Assembly (NCBI GenBank): GCA_016218825.1
Contig: JACRCV010000051.1
Location: 1 to 64,000, forward strand
Source of the DNA: Deltaproteobacteria bacterium
Lineage (GTDB): Bacteria; Myxococcota; XYA12-FULL-58-9
DNA length: 64,000 bases
Direction of reading: 5' to 3'
The notes beneath the pieces were generated by a model. It was not told the DNA's origin. It saw only the letters and a program-made list of their open reading frames with translations, and ran no database searches. Position 1 is the first letter of the stretch. Each line of letters starts with the position of its first letter. Made by a program: the position numbers and the translations under genes. Below are positions 6,142-31,007 of the stretch, piece after piece.

Positions 6142-9747
<3,606 letters not shown>

Positions 9748-14183: not shown

Positions 14184-14194
14184 GCCGCTTCGCC

Positions 14195-14277
14195 TGCATT
14201 TGATTCCCGCGCGGCCGCGGCGGCCGCGCTCCCCACCCCCACTCCCCCGACCCCTCGCCCCCGAGTGGGGCGAGGGG
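14195..14277 (+). repeat. Interspersed double-hairpin repeat, copy 1
   Basis: About 83 bp starting CTGCATTTGATTCCCGCG. It contains a first inverted repeat (GCGCGGCCGC/GCGGCCGCGC), then CCCCACCCCCACTCCCC, then a second near-perfect hairpin (CCCCTCGCCCC/GGGGCGAGGGG). It lies between two convergent genes, where it could double as a bidirectional terminator. Copies at 21792, 24170 and 30847 share the same order of blocks. Confidence 0.75.
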
Positions 14278-14304
14278 CTACGGTCGCCGCGCCCGCAAGG
14301 CGAC

Positions 14305-19020: not shown

Positions 19021-19404
19021 ATGCGCTGTGCCTCAGCTCTCGCCGCGCTGTCGTTGTCGCTCGTGCCGCTTGGCGCCGGCGCCGCGATCGAAGCGCAGAA
19101 CGTGCCGCCGGAGCCGGCGAGCGAGCCGCCGCGCGCGCCGGTGCTCACCAGGGCGCCGGAGCTGCTGCTCTTCGTCGCCGCCGCCTACCCCGAGGACCTG
19201 CTCGTCCTCGGCCGCGGTGGCGAGGTGACGCTCGGCCTCGACATCGACGCCCAGGGCGCGGTCACCGCGGTCGACGTCGTCGCGAGCACCGACGCCGCGT
19301 TCACCGCCCCGGCGGTCGCCGCCGGGGGCCAGTTCCAGTGTTCGCCGGCCGAGGTGGACGGCGTCCCCACCGCCATCCGCATCGAGTACCGCTACGTCTT
19401 CTAG
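19021..19404 (+). CDS. TonB-C-like N-terminal piece of a split receptor
   Basis: 127 residues: a signal peptide (MRCASALAALSLSLVPLGAGA) and then a TonB C-terminal-like domain (LLLFVAAAYPEDLLVLGRGGEVTLGLDID...AVDVVASTDAAF...IEYRYVF). The stop is TAG at 19402-19404. The receptor frame continues in the same phase with only one codon between the TAG and the next possible start. In Myxococcota this TonB-like module is commonly fused to the N-terminus of TonB-dependent receptors. The piece therefore looks like the first part of one 19021-21756 gene interrupted by a nonsense codon, a sequencing error or a readthrough site. Confidence 0.75.
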   Translation: MRCASALAALSLSLVPLGAGAAIEAQNVPPEPASEPPRAPVLTRAPELLLFVAAAYPEDLLVLGRGGEVTLGLDIDAQGAVTAVDVVASTDAAFTAPAVAAGGQFQCSPAEVDGVPTAIRIEYRYVF

Positions 19405-19407
19405 CCG

Positions 19408-21756
19408 GTGGTGCACGAGCCCGACGCCAGCGCCGGCGAACCGCCGGCGAGCGCCGCGGCGCTGTTGCCGGTCAACTTCAAGGGCCGGGTGCGTGAGGCC
19501 GGCAACCGCAAGCCGGTGGTCTCCGCGGTGATCCAGCTGAGCGGCCGCCCGGTCGCCGAGACCAACGGTGACGGCGAGTTCGAGGTCCGCGGTGCGCCGC
19601 CGGGCGCCTTCGTGGTCCGGATCAGCGCCGCGAGCTACGATCCCTACGAGGTCGAGGAGACCCTGCGACCCGGCGAGGCTCTCGAGGTCAACTACTACCT
19701 GGTGCGCCGTGCCCAGAGCCCGTTCGAGACCGTGGTCCGCAGCCGCGCCGAGCGCCAGGAGGTGGCGAAGGTCGAGCTGCAGCGCCAGGAGGTCAGCAAG
19801 ATCCCGGGCACCTTCGGCGATCCGGTGCGGGTGATCGAGAACCTCCCGGGGATGGGGCGCACGCCCGGCGGCTTGGGCGGCGCGCTCTTGGTCCGCGGCG
19901 ACCGGCCGTCGGCGACCGCGGTCTACATGGACGGGGTCGCGATCCCGCAGCTGTACCACTTCGCCGGCCTGACCTCGGTGGTGAACGCCGAGTTCCTGGA
20001 GAAGATCGACTTCTACCCCGGCGGCTTCGGCGCCCGCTACGGCAGCGCCACCGCCGGCGTCGTCGACGTGACGACCCGCGACGTCCGCTGCGATCTGTGG
20101 CGCGCCGCGGCGAAGGCCGACCTGGTCGACGCCGCGGCTTACACCTGCACCCCGGCCGCCGAATGGCACGTCGCCGCCGCCGGCCGGCGGTCCTACATCG
20201 ACGCGCTGTTGCCGCTGGTCATCGAGCGCGTCGTCAAGAACGACGAGGGTCAGGGGAGCGCGACCTTGTCGCCGCGCTACTGGGACTATCAGGCCAAGGC
20301 GAGTCGGGTCGTCGGCGTGCACGCGATCGACATCTTCGCGTTCGGCTCCGACGATCGGCTGCGCCTGATCCTCGCCGGCTCCGCCGAGAACATCAACGCC
20401 AACTTCGGCGGCCACTTGATGTTCCACCGGCTCGTCGCCCGGGATCGCTTCCGCATCAACGACAAGCTGACGCTGACCTCGACCGTCGCTCCGGGCTACA
20501 CCGCCAACTCCGCGGCCTACACCGCGGAGGAGATCAGCTTCGCCGCCGGCGTGCAGCTGAACGTCTGGAGCGCCGACTGGCGCGAGGACCTGAGCTACGA
20601 GCTCGACGACGGGCTGACGATCAACGCCGGCCTCGATCACCGCCTCGGCACCGCGATCTTCCGCATGGACAATCCGGCGCCGACCGAGCTGCGCTACTTC
20701 CCGACGCGCACCTTCGACTACACCCGCATCCAGAAGTACCGCGCCGACATGAGCGCCTTCAACCAGGGGTACTGGGTCGAGGTCGTCGCCGAGCCGGTCC
20801 CGGGCGTGAAGCTCGTCCCCGGGCTGCGCTTGGATCGCTGGGACTTCTTCCACACCCAGGACTGGTCGCTGTTGCCGCGCGCCACCGCCCGCGTCGAGGT
20901 CGTCGCCGGCACCACCCTGAAGGCCGCCTACGGCCTCTATGAAAAGCTGCCCGAGCCCGGCTTCTTGCTCGACACCATCGGCAACCCCGGGCTCGACCCC
21001 GAGCGCGCCCACCACTTCGTGCTCGGCGTCGAAGAGACCATCACCCCGGTCGTGAGCCTCGACGTCCAGGGCTTCTACAACCTCCGCTCCCACATCCCGA
21101 CGCCGTCCGCGAAGGTCACCTACGAAGACGGCCGCGCGATCTTCGAGGTCTGGTCGAGCACCGGCGCCGGCCGGGCCTACGGCCTCGAGGTGCTGTTGCG
21201 CCACCTGGCGACCGCGGACGGCGCGTTCTACGGCTGGCTGTCGTACACCCTGAGCCGCTCGCTCCAGGAGGACAACAACGTCGACACCACGCAGGCGATC
21301 CAGGGCGGCGGCGGCGGCGGCCGCCCTGCGGCCGACAGCCCGGCGACGGAGCACCTGTCGCCCTTCGACCAGACCCACATCCTGACCGTCGTCGCCCAGT
21401 GGGTGCTGCCCTGCGGCTTCGAGGCCGGCTTTCGTTTCCGGTTGGTGTCGGGCAATCCCTACACGCCCCTCGACCGCGGCGCGGTGCGCTACGACGCCGA
21501 CAGCGACAGCTACGCCTTGGATCTCTCCGGGGTCGAGCGCAACTCGGCGCGGATGCCGACCTTCAACCAGCTCGACGTTCGTATCGATCGCACCTGGGTC
21601 TTCGATCTCTTCAAGCTCACCTGCTACCTCGAGCTCATCAACGCCTACTACGCGAAGAACGTCGAGCAATACAGCTACGACTTCCGCTTCCGCGAGAAGA
21701 CCCCGATCACCCTCCTGCCGATCCTGCCGGTGTTGGGCGTCAAAGGTGAGTTCTGA
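19408..21756 (+). CDS. TonB-dependent outer-membrane receptor
   Basis: 782 residues from GTG 19408. After a short linker comes a carboxypeptidase-regulatory-like domain (GRVREAGNRKPVVSAVIQL...GEFEVRGAPPGAFVVRI, residues ~24-95). A plug domain follows (IPGTFGDPVRVIENLPGMGR...LLVRGDRPSATAVYMDG), then a 22-strand-type barrel ending LPVLGVKGEF with a terminal Phe. It should sit in the outer membrane and import a siderophore, vitamin or other large solute using TonB/ExbBD energy. It has no signal peptide of its own. The signal lies in the preceding in-frame TonB-C-like piece, so without readthrough or repair the product could not be exported. Overlaps the next gene by TGATG. Confidence 0.88.
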   Translation: MVHEPDASAGEPPASAAALLPVNFKGRVREAGNRKPVVSAVIQLSGRPVAETNGDGEFEVRGAPPGAFVVRISAASYDPYEVEETLRPGEALEVNYYLVRRAQSPFETVVRSRAERQEVAKVELQRQEVSKIPGTFGDPVRVIENLPGMGRTPGGLGGALLVRGDRPSATAVYMDGVAIPQLYHFAGLTSVVNAEFLEKIDFYPGGFGARYGSATAGVVDVTTRDVRCDLWRAAAKADLVDAAAYTCTPAAEWHVAAAGRRSYIDALLPLVIERVVKNDEGQGSATLSPRYWDYQAKASRVVGVHAIDIFAFGSDDRLRLILAGSAENINANFGGHLMFHRLVARDRFRINDKLTLTSTVAPGYTANSAAYTAEEISFAAGVQLNVWSADWREDLSYELDDGLTINAGLDHRLGTAIFRMDNPAPTELRYFPTRTFDYTRIQKYRADMSAFNQGYWVEVVAEPVPGVKLVPGLRLDRWDFFHTQDWSLLPRATARVEVVAGTTLKAAYGLYEKLPEPGFLLDTIGNPGLDPERAHHFVLGVEETITPVVSLDVQGFYNLRSHIPTPSAKVTYEDGRAIFEVWSSTGAGRAYGLEVLLRHLATADGAFYGWLSYTLSRSLQEDNNVDTTQAIQGGGGGGRPAADSPATEHLSPFDQTHILTVVAQWVLPCGFEAGFRFRLVSGNPYTPLDRGAVRYDADSDSYALDLSGVERNSARMPTFNQLDVRIDRTWVFDLFKLTCYLELINAYYAKNVEQYSYDFRFREKTPITLLPILPVLGVKGEF

Positions 21757-23000
21757 TGTGCGGCTCTCTCCTACACCTGTCTCTTCTGCCTTTGATTCCC
21801 GCGCCGCGGCTGCCGCGGCGCTCCCCACCCCCACTCCCCCAACCCCTCGCCCCCGGGTGGGGCGAGGGGAGACGATCTCTTCCTCGCCAAGGTCTCGCGC
21901 TTGGGATCTGCGCCCTCGCTGCGGCGTGCACCGGCAGCCTCGATCGTTACGGCGACGTCAAAGACCTGCGGGTGCTCGCCATCGTCGCCGAGCCGCCGGC
22001 AATCCTCCTCGACGTACCGGAGCCTATCTCGATGAGCTTCCGGGCGCTGGTGGTCGACCCTCGAGGTGGCCCCGTCGACTACACCTGGAGCTTCTGCCCG
22101 GTCGAGAGCAACAACGCCTGCGCCGACTACGAGCAAAGGCGCGCCGCCGCCGGCGCCGACGATGGCCCGGCGCTCGACCTGATGCGGGCGATAGCGCAGA
22201 GCGGCACCGCGGTCCCGAAGAACGAAGCCGAGCCACCGCCGCCTTTGAGTTGGTGGGCGACGCGCGCCGTGTGGCCCTACGCGGTGCCGGAGCTCACCAT
22301 CGCGGCTCCCGAGCAGCTGTGGCATTACCACTTCGCAACCAGCTTCTTGGGAATGGGCCTGGGCGCCTGGCCCGCCGCGACGCTCCAAGTCGCGGGTGCC
22401 GACGACACGGTCACCGCGGAGAAGCGGGTCGTCTTGGGCGTCCGCGATCTGCGCCGCTTCGTGGAGTTCTGGGGCGCCGCGCTGCCGTACCGAGTGTGCC
22501 CGGACGGCATGACTCCCGCCGAGGTCCCGGGCTGCCTGAACATCAAGAACATGCCGCAAAACCGCAATCCGGTGTTCGCCGCGGTCAAGGTGGCGGAGGG
22601 CAAGAACGCCACCGAGCCGGTGTGGACCGAGGTAGAGATCGGCCAGCCCGGCGACGTCGCCGGCCTCGCCTACCTCCAGGCGGGGGCGTCGATCCGCGTC
22701 CTCCCGGAGTTTACGGCCGAGTCCTACCAACCATATCAAGTGGTCAAGGGCGACCTGGTGAACGGCACCCTGTTCACCGAAGACCGCGTCGAGGAGCTCT
22801 CGGTGTCGTGGTTCACGACCGCGGGCAAGACCGCCGAGGATCTGACGTGGCCGAAGTTCACCAAGAGCCTGGACACGTCGTACACCGCTCCCGAAGAGCC
22901 GCCGGCGGCGACCGACGGCCGGGTGACCATCTTCATGGTGGCCCGCGACCAGCGCGGCGGCGAGAGCGTGATGAGCCTGGAGCTCATCGTGCGACCGTAG
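21756..23000 (+). CDS. Lipoprotein-like protein with repeat-derived N-terminus
   Basis: 414 residues if started at ATG 21756, which overlaps the receptor stop. Residues ~12-45 are the translation of an interspersed repeat copy (LIPAPRLPRR...APGWGEGRR). Only after this come the hydrophobic core and lipobox expected of a signal (GLALGICALAAACTG). No standard start codon lies between the repeat and that core. The mature protein (RYGDVKDLRVLAIVAEPPAI...VDYTWSFCPV) resembles uncharacterised lipoproteins found downstream of myxobacterial TonB receptors and may act with the receptor. Whether it is exported with this N-terminus is doubtful. Confidence 0.7.
   Translation: MCGSLLHLSLLPLIPAPRLPRRSPPPLPQPLAPGWGEGRRSLPRQGLALGICALAAACTGSLDRYGDVKDLRVLAIVAEPPAILLDVPEPISMSFRALVVDPRGGPVDYTWSFCPVESNNACADYEQRRAAAGADDGPALDLMRAIAQSGTAVPKNEAEPPPPLSWWATRAVWPYAVPELTIAAPEQLWHYHFATSFLGMGLGAWPAATLQVAGADDTVTAEKRVVLGVRDLRRFVEFWGAALPYRVCPDGMTPAEVPGCLNIKNMPQNRNPVFAAVKVAEGKNATEPVWTEVEIGQPGDVAGLAYLQAGASIRVLPEFTAESYQPYQVVKGDLVNGTLFTEDRVEELSVSWFTTAGKTAEDLTWPKFTKSLDTSYTAPEEPPAATDGRVTIFMVARDQRGGESVMSLELIVRP
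21792..21869 (+). repeat. Interspersed double-hairpin repeat, copy 2 (inside a gene)
   Basis: About 78 bp: TTTGATTCCCGCG, then the inverted repeat CGCCGCGGC-TG-CCGCGGCG, then CCCCACCCCCACTCCCC, then a perfect 11-bp hairpin CCCCTCGCCCC-CGGGT-GGGGCGAGGGG. It is translated in frame as part of the lipoprotein gene starting at 21756, between its start codon and the signal-peptide core. Confidence 0.75.
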
Positions 23001-23090: not shown

Positions 23091-24254
23091 ATGAAGATCG
23101 AGATCGACGCGGTAAAGTCCAGCTCCGCGAGCCAGATCGCCCGCAAGCTCAAAGGGCTACACTTCGGCCGCGAGTTCAGCGACCGGATGTTCCTGGCCGA
23201 CTGGAGCGAGCGGCGCGGCTGGCACGCGCCCCGCGTCGTGGCGCACGGCCCGCTGACGCTGGATCCGGCGGCGAACGTCTTGCACTACGCCCAGCAGGTG
23301 TTCGAGGGCCTGAAGGCGCATCGCTTGAAGGACGGGGGGATCGCGATCTTCCGCCCCAACATGCACGCGCTGCGCTTCGACTGCTCGGCGGAGCGGCTGT
23401 GCATGCCGCCGGTCGGCACCGAGCTGTTCGGCGCCGCGGTGGACACCCTCGTCGATCTCGAGCGCCGCTGGGTGCCGCCAAGCGGCGCGGGCGCGCTCTA
23501 CATCCGCCCGACGCTGATCGCCACCGAGGCGGTGCTCGGGGTGCGGGTGTCGTCGACCTATCTGTTCTTCGTCATCGTCGGCCCGGTCGGGCCGTATTTC
23601 CCGAACGGCTTCAAGCCGGTCAAGATCTACGTCGAGCAGAGCTACGTCCGCTCGACGCCGGGGAGCATCGGTTTCGCGAAGTCCGCCGGCAACTACGCCG
23701 CGAGCCTGCTCGCCGGCAGGCACGCCTACGAGCGCGGCTGCGATCAGGTGTTGTTCCTCGACGCCAAGGAGCACCGCTACCTCGAGGAGCTCGGCGGGAT
23801 GAACGTGTTCGCGGTGATCGACGGGGTGCTGACGACGCCGCCTCTGTCCGGCAGCATCTTGCCGGGCGTCACCCGCGCCACGATCTTGGAGCTCGCGCCG
23901 CGCTTGGGCCTCGAGGCCCGCGAGCGGCCCATCGCCTTGGACGAGATCACCCGCGGCCTGGAGCACGGCCGGGTCACCGAGATGTTCGCGGTCGGCACCG
24001 CGGCGGTGGTCACCGCGATCGGCAAGCTCGTGGTCGGCGACCAGACCCACACCGTCCACCACGGCGGCGTCGGCAAGATCGCGCAGACCCTCTACGACCG
24101 CCTGACCGGCATCCACACCGGGGTCATCCCCGACACCGACGGCTGGATGCACGAGGTCCGCGAGCATCGCCCCCGCCCCACCCGGGGGCGGGGGACGGGG
24201 GGTGGGGGTGGGGAGCGCCGCGGCAGCCGCGGCGCGGGAATCAAGAAGAGGTAG
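23091..24254 (+). CDS. ilvE: Branched-chain amino-acid aminotransferase
   Basis: 387 residues, a fold-type IV PLP enzyme that interconverts Val/Leu/Ile and their 2-oxo acids with glutamate. Motifs include LHYAQQVFEGLKAHR (about 64-78), IRPTLIATEAVLGV, the PLP lysine in GFAKSAGNY (K197), the EELGGMNVF loop and the GSILPGVTR cofactor-phosphate segment. This is the long bacterial/eukaryotic type II BCAT. ATG 23091 is chosen over GTG 23079 for the native MKIE start and its GGAGG. The usual C-terminus DGWMHEV ends at residue 356; the remaining 31 residues (RPRPTRGRGTGGGGGERRG...) are encoded by a reverse-oriented interspersed repeat. Convergent with the DUF2279 gene. Confidence 0.93.
   Translation: MKIEIDAVKSSSASQIARKLKGLHFGREFSDRMFLADWSERRGWHAPRVVAHGPLTLDPAANVLHYAQQVFEGLKAHRLKDGGIAIFRPNMHALRFDCSAERLCMPPVGTELFGAAVDTLVDLERRWVPPSGAGALYIRPTLIATEAVLGVRVSSTYLFFVIVGPVGPYFPNGFKPVKIYVEQSYVRSTPGSIGFAKSAGNYAASLLAGRHAYERGCDQVLFLDAKEHRYLEELGGMNVFAVIDGVLTTPPLSGSILPGVTRATILELAPRLGLEARERPIALDEITRGLEHGRVTEMFAVGTAAVVTAIGKLVVGDQTHTVHHGGVGKIAQTLYDRLTGIHTGVIPDTDGWMHEVREHRPRPTRGRGTGGGGGERRGSRGAGIKKR
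24170..24244 (-). repeat. Interspersed double-hairpin repeat, copy 3 (inside ilvE 3' end)
   Basis: About 75 bp in reverse orientation. Reading the minus strand it gives TTGATTCCCGCG, the CCGCGGCTGCCGCGG inverted repeat, CCCCACCCCCACCCCCC and a CCCCCGCCCC/GGGGCGGGGG hairpin. It covers the last ~25 codons of the aminotransferase frame and sits at the junction of two convergent genes. Confidence 0.72.
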
Positions 24255-30817: not shown

Positions 30818-30846
30818 TCGCCGCCGGCTGCATCTCTGATCTTCAC

Positions 30847-30951
30847 CTGCATTTGATTCCCGCGCGGCCGCGGCGGCCGCGCTCCCCACCCCACCCCCCG
30901 TCCGCTGTCTCAGCGTCGGCCAGATTTCCCCCGCCCCGGGTGGGCGGGGCG
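30847..30951 (+). repeat. Interspersed double-hairpin repeat, copy 4
   Basis: Starts CTGCATTTGATTCCCGCG, identical to copy 1 through the GCGGCCGC inverted repeat and CCCCACCCC. The middle is then expanded (CCGTCCGCTGTCTCAGCGTC), and it ends in a CCCGCCCC-GGGT-GGGCGGGG hairpin. A partial second copy of the left end follows at 30967. Confidence 0.72.
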
Positions 30952-30966
30952 ACCGTCGCCTCGTGC

Positions 30967-30990
30967 TTTGATTCCCGCGCGGCCGCTGCC
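30967..30990 (+). repeat. Partial repeat copy (left end only)
   Basis: TTTGATTCCCGCG followed by CGGCCGCTGCC repeats the left end of the element 16 bp after copy 4, with no right hairpin. It sits just upstream of the Crp/Fnr gene at 31008 and may be a truncated or tandem insertion. Confidence 0.6.
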
Positions 30991-31007
30991 GACACCACGC
31001 TCCGAGC

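Follow-up and report, generated by a model that had tools for sequence, protein, structure and literature searches.

A private in-frame TAG in a TonB_C-receptor fusion gene of a Myxococcota genome, most likely a nonsense mutation or a single-base assembly error

Within the window, the whole stretch of 64,000 nucleotides that was analysed, positions 19021-21756 (+) form one reading frame for a TonB-dependent receptor whose sole interruption is a TAG at codon 128 (19402-19404), with CCG as the next codon. The most likely cause is either a recent nonsense mutation private to this genome or a one-base error in the assembly, rather than a novel form of decoding. It is very probable that this is a private single-base change in a receptor gene that was intact ancestrally, and a real, recent GAG-to-TAG nonsense change is the version of it that we somewhat favour. 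A preliminary description of this DNA had placed a TonB_C-like protein and a receptor in the same frame, split by TAG-CCG, and the translation, open everywhere except at the TAG, bears this out.

The frame encodes, in order, a signal peptide, a TonB C-terminal-type domain (TonB_C), a CarboxypepD_reg domain, a plug and a beta-barrel. The upstream ORF of 127 amino acids (19021-19404, ending in the TAG) carries the signal peptide at approximately residues 1-21 and a Pfam TonB_C match at residues 54-125 (approximately 19180-19395; E = 3.9e-9). The rest of the frame (19405-21756) starts with the linker, ends in TGA and has no signal peptide of its own. Read as 782 amino acids from a GTG at 19408, it matches CarboxypepD_reg (approximately 19480-19701; E = 1.8e-9), Plug (PF07715, approximately 19822-20061; E = 2.1e-8, 35.0 bits against a cut-off of 23.9) and TonB_dep_Rec_b-barrel (PF00593, approximately 20446-21606; E = 2.5e-16, 61.0 bits against a cut-off of 27), all three exceeding the curated Pfam cut-offs. 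Between the regulatory-like domain and the plug lies the motif FETVVR (19723-19740), conserved in homologues by alignment and residue counts, which is probably the TonB box. A profile of 55 family members matches the TonB C-terminal domain structures 2k9k, 1xx3 and 2gsk_B at positions 51-136 and the FepA plug at positions 248-370, and the domain assignment is therefore firm. In the AlphaFold2 model of the intact sister protein (mean pLDDT 85), a compact TonB_C ends at strand 123-131 and is followed by a disordered stretch at 135-145 (pLDDT below 50), the regulatory-like domain, a second disordered stretch at approximately the TonB-box-like motif, and then the plug and barrel. Placed on this model, the TAG falls between the last TonB_C strand and the disordered linker, at the very end of the domain, so that termination would be predicted to free the whole of TonB_C.

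The 911-residue read-through protein aligns end to end with a single uninterrupted ORF in four relatives, at 64% identity in the same genus, 58% in the same family, and 52% and 46% in the same order. At the level of sequence, this end-to-end alignment excludes two halves lying side by side by chance, and the split between TonB_C and receptor is not ancestral. Whole-genome searches recovered uninterrupted full-length homologues in most of 97 relatives. Named genomes, scanned independently, yielded 80 loci, one of which (L205) starts at a contig edge past the junction; in the other 79, all of which span it, both halves lie in one open frame and the alignment contains no stop. The combined architecture had been called the standard fusion in the preliminary description, and it is present in 79/79 of these junction-covering loci; chosen with the family's own profile, the loci make TonB_C-first the rule among those examined and are silent on its frequency among all receptors. 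The comparison with sister genomes, which had been proposed as a check, gave a clear result: the codon at the TAG site is GAG (Glu) in the same-genus, the same-family and one same-order orthologue, GTT in the other same-order orthologue and other sense codons elsewhere. The source genome thus departs from the family norm, its TonB_C and receptor not being in one open frame (TAG at 19402), and provided that the TAG base is real the gene carries a disabling lesion compared with its intact orthologues. Because the relatives are uninterrupted and the receptor half has neither a secreted start nor a ribosome-binding motif, the fusion is ancestral and the stop private to the source genome.

The barrel-carrying polypeptide has no export signal: the signal peptide precedes the TAG, and in intact relatives it is encoded by the same ORF as the barrel. 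The preliminary description held that the receptor could not be exported as written, unless it proved to have a secreted start of its own. No plausible signal peptide was found at any in-frame start after the TAG, so the receptor half could not reach the outer membrane as written. This bears directly on a functional split, in which a stand-alone periplasmic TonB_C protein would be made alongside a receptor translated separately by reinitiation at GTG 19408. A GTG does stand one codon past the stop and TonB_C would, on the model, be released as a complete domain; however, no ribosome-binding motif was seen before GTG 19408, the receptor half has no signal peptide and no relative is divided in such a way, which leaves the functional split extremely unlikely. 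A reading as separate genes was rejected on the missing export signal and on the fusion of the two parts in every relative spanning the site.

Readthrough is the other reading in which the TAG would be functional, with programmed or tolerated decoding of UAG acting as a regulatory valve that yields mostly exported TonB_C and a little full-length receptor. The receptor half has not visibly decayed, the stop lies at an interdomain linker where any residue is predicted to be tolerable, and bacterial genes that contain in-frame stops while remaining under purifying selection have been reported (PMC7918605). However, the stop is conserved in no relative, and the same study finds that in-frame stops for the most part last no longer than polymorphisms within populations, a pattern that the receptor TAG fits. 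No stimulatory RNA structure was found in the 100 nt after the TAG (z-score -0.32; 72/200 shuffles as stable), and a structured readthrough signal was rejected since this segment folds no better than shuffled sequence. PylS was not found in the source genome (96.5% complete), and there was no CUA anticodon among ARAGORN calls on tRNA loci; UAG recoding by pyrrolysine or a suppressor tRNA was rejected on these two results. RF1 is present (506.8 bits), and TAG ends 126/378 long training genes in the source genome, making it the normal terminator of a third of them, in line with the earlier statement that TAG serves as an ordinary stop elsewhere. Given no conserved TAG, no RNA structure, no PylS, no CUA tRNA, the presence of RF1 and a receptor half that lacks an export signal, programmed readthrough is very unlikely; of the three options first proposed, nonsense mutation and base error fit, and readthrough is not supported. 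If the TAG were both real and maintained, leaky UAG readthrough could set a low ratio of full-length receptor to secreted free TonB_C, and the free domain could block the TonB boxes of the cell's receptors as a built-in inhibitor, an idea that we regard as highly improbable.

A single wrong base, whether introduced in the consensus or assembly or taken into the draft from a minor strain variant, would mean that living cells have a sense codon here and make a normal fused receptor. A single base separates the TAG from the codon used by close relatives, and nothing else breaks the 2.7-kb frame, whose rate of evolution equals that of the sister. The genome is a draft in 121 contigs, and most relatives in the family are metagenome-assembled genomes (MAGs). 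Against this stands a yardstick for in-frame stops, obtained from a six-frame hexamer scan for coding in the same frame on both sides of a stop, checked with Pfam, over about 1.39 of the 6.5 Mb. It returned 48 same-frame stop pairs with strong coding signal, the receptor TAG among them; of the 47 others, 46 have no Pfam domain across the stop and resemble ordinary neighbouring genes, and the last is probably a selenocysteine UGA. Because this UGA alone has a domain across the stop, genuine recoding is recognizable and accidental nonsense inside domains rare, and single-base nonsense artefacts are, by the same token, uncommon in the assembly, with the qualification that the yardstick is blind to stops between domains, such as the receptor TAG. 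An error is possible but less likely than a real change. The selenocysteine candidate is a peroxiredoxin (locus L137 on contig C55, 16137-16622) with UGA 16305 at the peroxidatic cysteine position (PKAFTPGU); the source genome has a tRNA-Sec gene (contig C70, 199275-199368, minus strand), and the protein is likely to be a selenoprotein of known type.

If the base is real, the change would be young. With the same-family protein as outgroup, relative-rate counts gave 82 private changes in the window protein and 82 in the sister, and no domain departs significantly; a long-term pseudogene was rejected on this 82:82 ratio. The rate of change in this gene does not exceed the sister's, which argues for a young change, where 'recent' means only some time after the split from the nearest relative, which is 64% identical. 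In family profiles built without the query sequence, the scores of the regulatory-like domain, plug and barrel are on a par with the sister's. TonB_C scores 93 bits against 107-111 in the three closest relatives, with 91 and 97 in other intact members, and it has a unique F107C substitution at a position that is Phe (78) or Tyr (2) in 80 other aligned residues. The sequence comparison therefore has at most a faint sign of earlier relaxation, confined to TonB_C, although these TonB_C-only changes could mean that TonB_C and receptor began to separate earlier than a fresh mutation would permit.

The receptor stop overlaps the start of a downstream lipoprotein gene (21756-23000, +) through a TGATG of a type also found in most relatives inspected. 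A point absent from the preliminary description is that this gene contains a copy of a dispersed palindromic repeat (21780-21892, +). The copy lies in frame between the start codon and the lipobox, lengthens the signal region by about 36 residues, and is found in the source genome only, the gene of the relatives lacking it. The repeat consists of TTTGATTCCC, a 21-nt palindrome, a C-rich stretch and often a second hairpin (CCCCTCGCCCCCGGGTGGGGCGAGGGG); the palindrome occurs with several stem sequences related by compensatory changes, for example the GCGCCGCGGC and GCGCGGCCGC types. Other copies in the window lie at 14188-14300 (+), 24170-24244 (-), 30841-30899 (+) and 30955-30991 (+). Exact repeat heads number 137 in the source genome, 3 in the same-genus genome and 0 in 11 other relatives, and the repeat often lies within a few hundred bases of contig ends; it has the look of a REP or MITE-like element that was amplified recently. 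The insertion and F107C in TonB_C are two hints in favour of real decay. Two blows to one operon may make real decay a little likelier than sequencing error, but weakly, because the repeat is so common in the source genome. The lipoprotein of the sister MAG (RA.bin128, locus L145) loses similarity near its C-terminus, after TNGRLMPVGG and past approximately position 7830, which looks like a frameshift or assembly error. Positions 6931-8084 of the window hold tandem imperfect repeats of approximately 57-58 codons with the motif CDGxDNDCDG, spaced by 171-177 nt, an array with the appearance of calcium-binding repeats.

The proposed course of events would begin with an intact TonB-dependent receptor of a Myxococcota family with a TonB C-terminal-type domain at its N-terminus, in which one recent point change, private to the source genome, turned GAG into TAG at the edge of TonB_C. 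The sequences show the homology, the GAG of the relatives, no long-term relaxation and no alternative export signal, whereas the effect on protein output and whether the base is real are matters of inference. If the base is real, ribosomes would stop at the TAG, a lone TonB_C of roughly 100 residues would be exported to the periplasm, and essentially no outer-membrane receptor would be made beyond what a low level of spontaneous readthrough allows. A wrong base would make the gene an ordinary intact receptor.

A single nonsense change in one draft genome has little weight, and its use is as a warning that the receptor annotation describes two pieces of one gene. The architecture of the fusion family is of more interest than the stop: in the family alignment (loci L145-L224), receptors across Myxococcota have a TonB C-terminal-type domain of their own in the N-terminal position, with a conserved ETVVR motif resembling a TonB box after it. 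Literature searches found no functional study of TonB_C-receptor fusions. A natural truncation that frees TonB_C would be a convenient test case.

Belinky et al. (PMC7918605) report that in-frame stops are widespread in bacterial genes and not always fatal. The present gene shares with theirs a single nonsense codon and a conserved remainder, and TAG is among the codons reported; however, stops in that study were required to be shared between species, whereas the present TAG is known from a single genome and could be erroneous. Among receptors, the closest likeness is to Oar of Myxococcus xanthus, one of the TonB-dependent transporters with an N-terminal extension (PMC6434023), which is likewise from Myxococcota and has a signal peptide, a CarboxypepD_reg-type domain, a TonB-box-like motif, a plug and a barrel. 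Compared with the Oar type, the present family adds a TonB C-terminal-type domain ahead of the regulatory-like domain, here interrupted by the TAG; that paper lists five N-terminal types, none of them with this architecture. The truncated product would, by profile and by the predicted fold of the sister, be a complete copy of the TonB C-terminal domain (PF03544; 1xx3, 2k9k, 2gsk_B). It differs from TonB in lacking the transmembrane anchor and proline-rich spacer, and in the present family the receptor itself normally carries this domain at its N-terminus.
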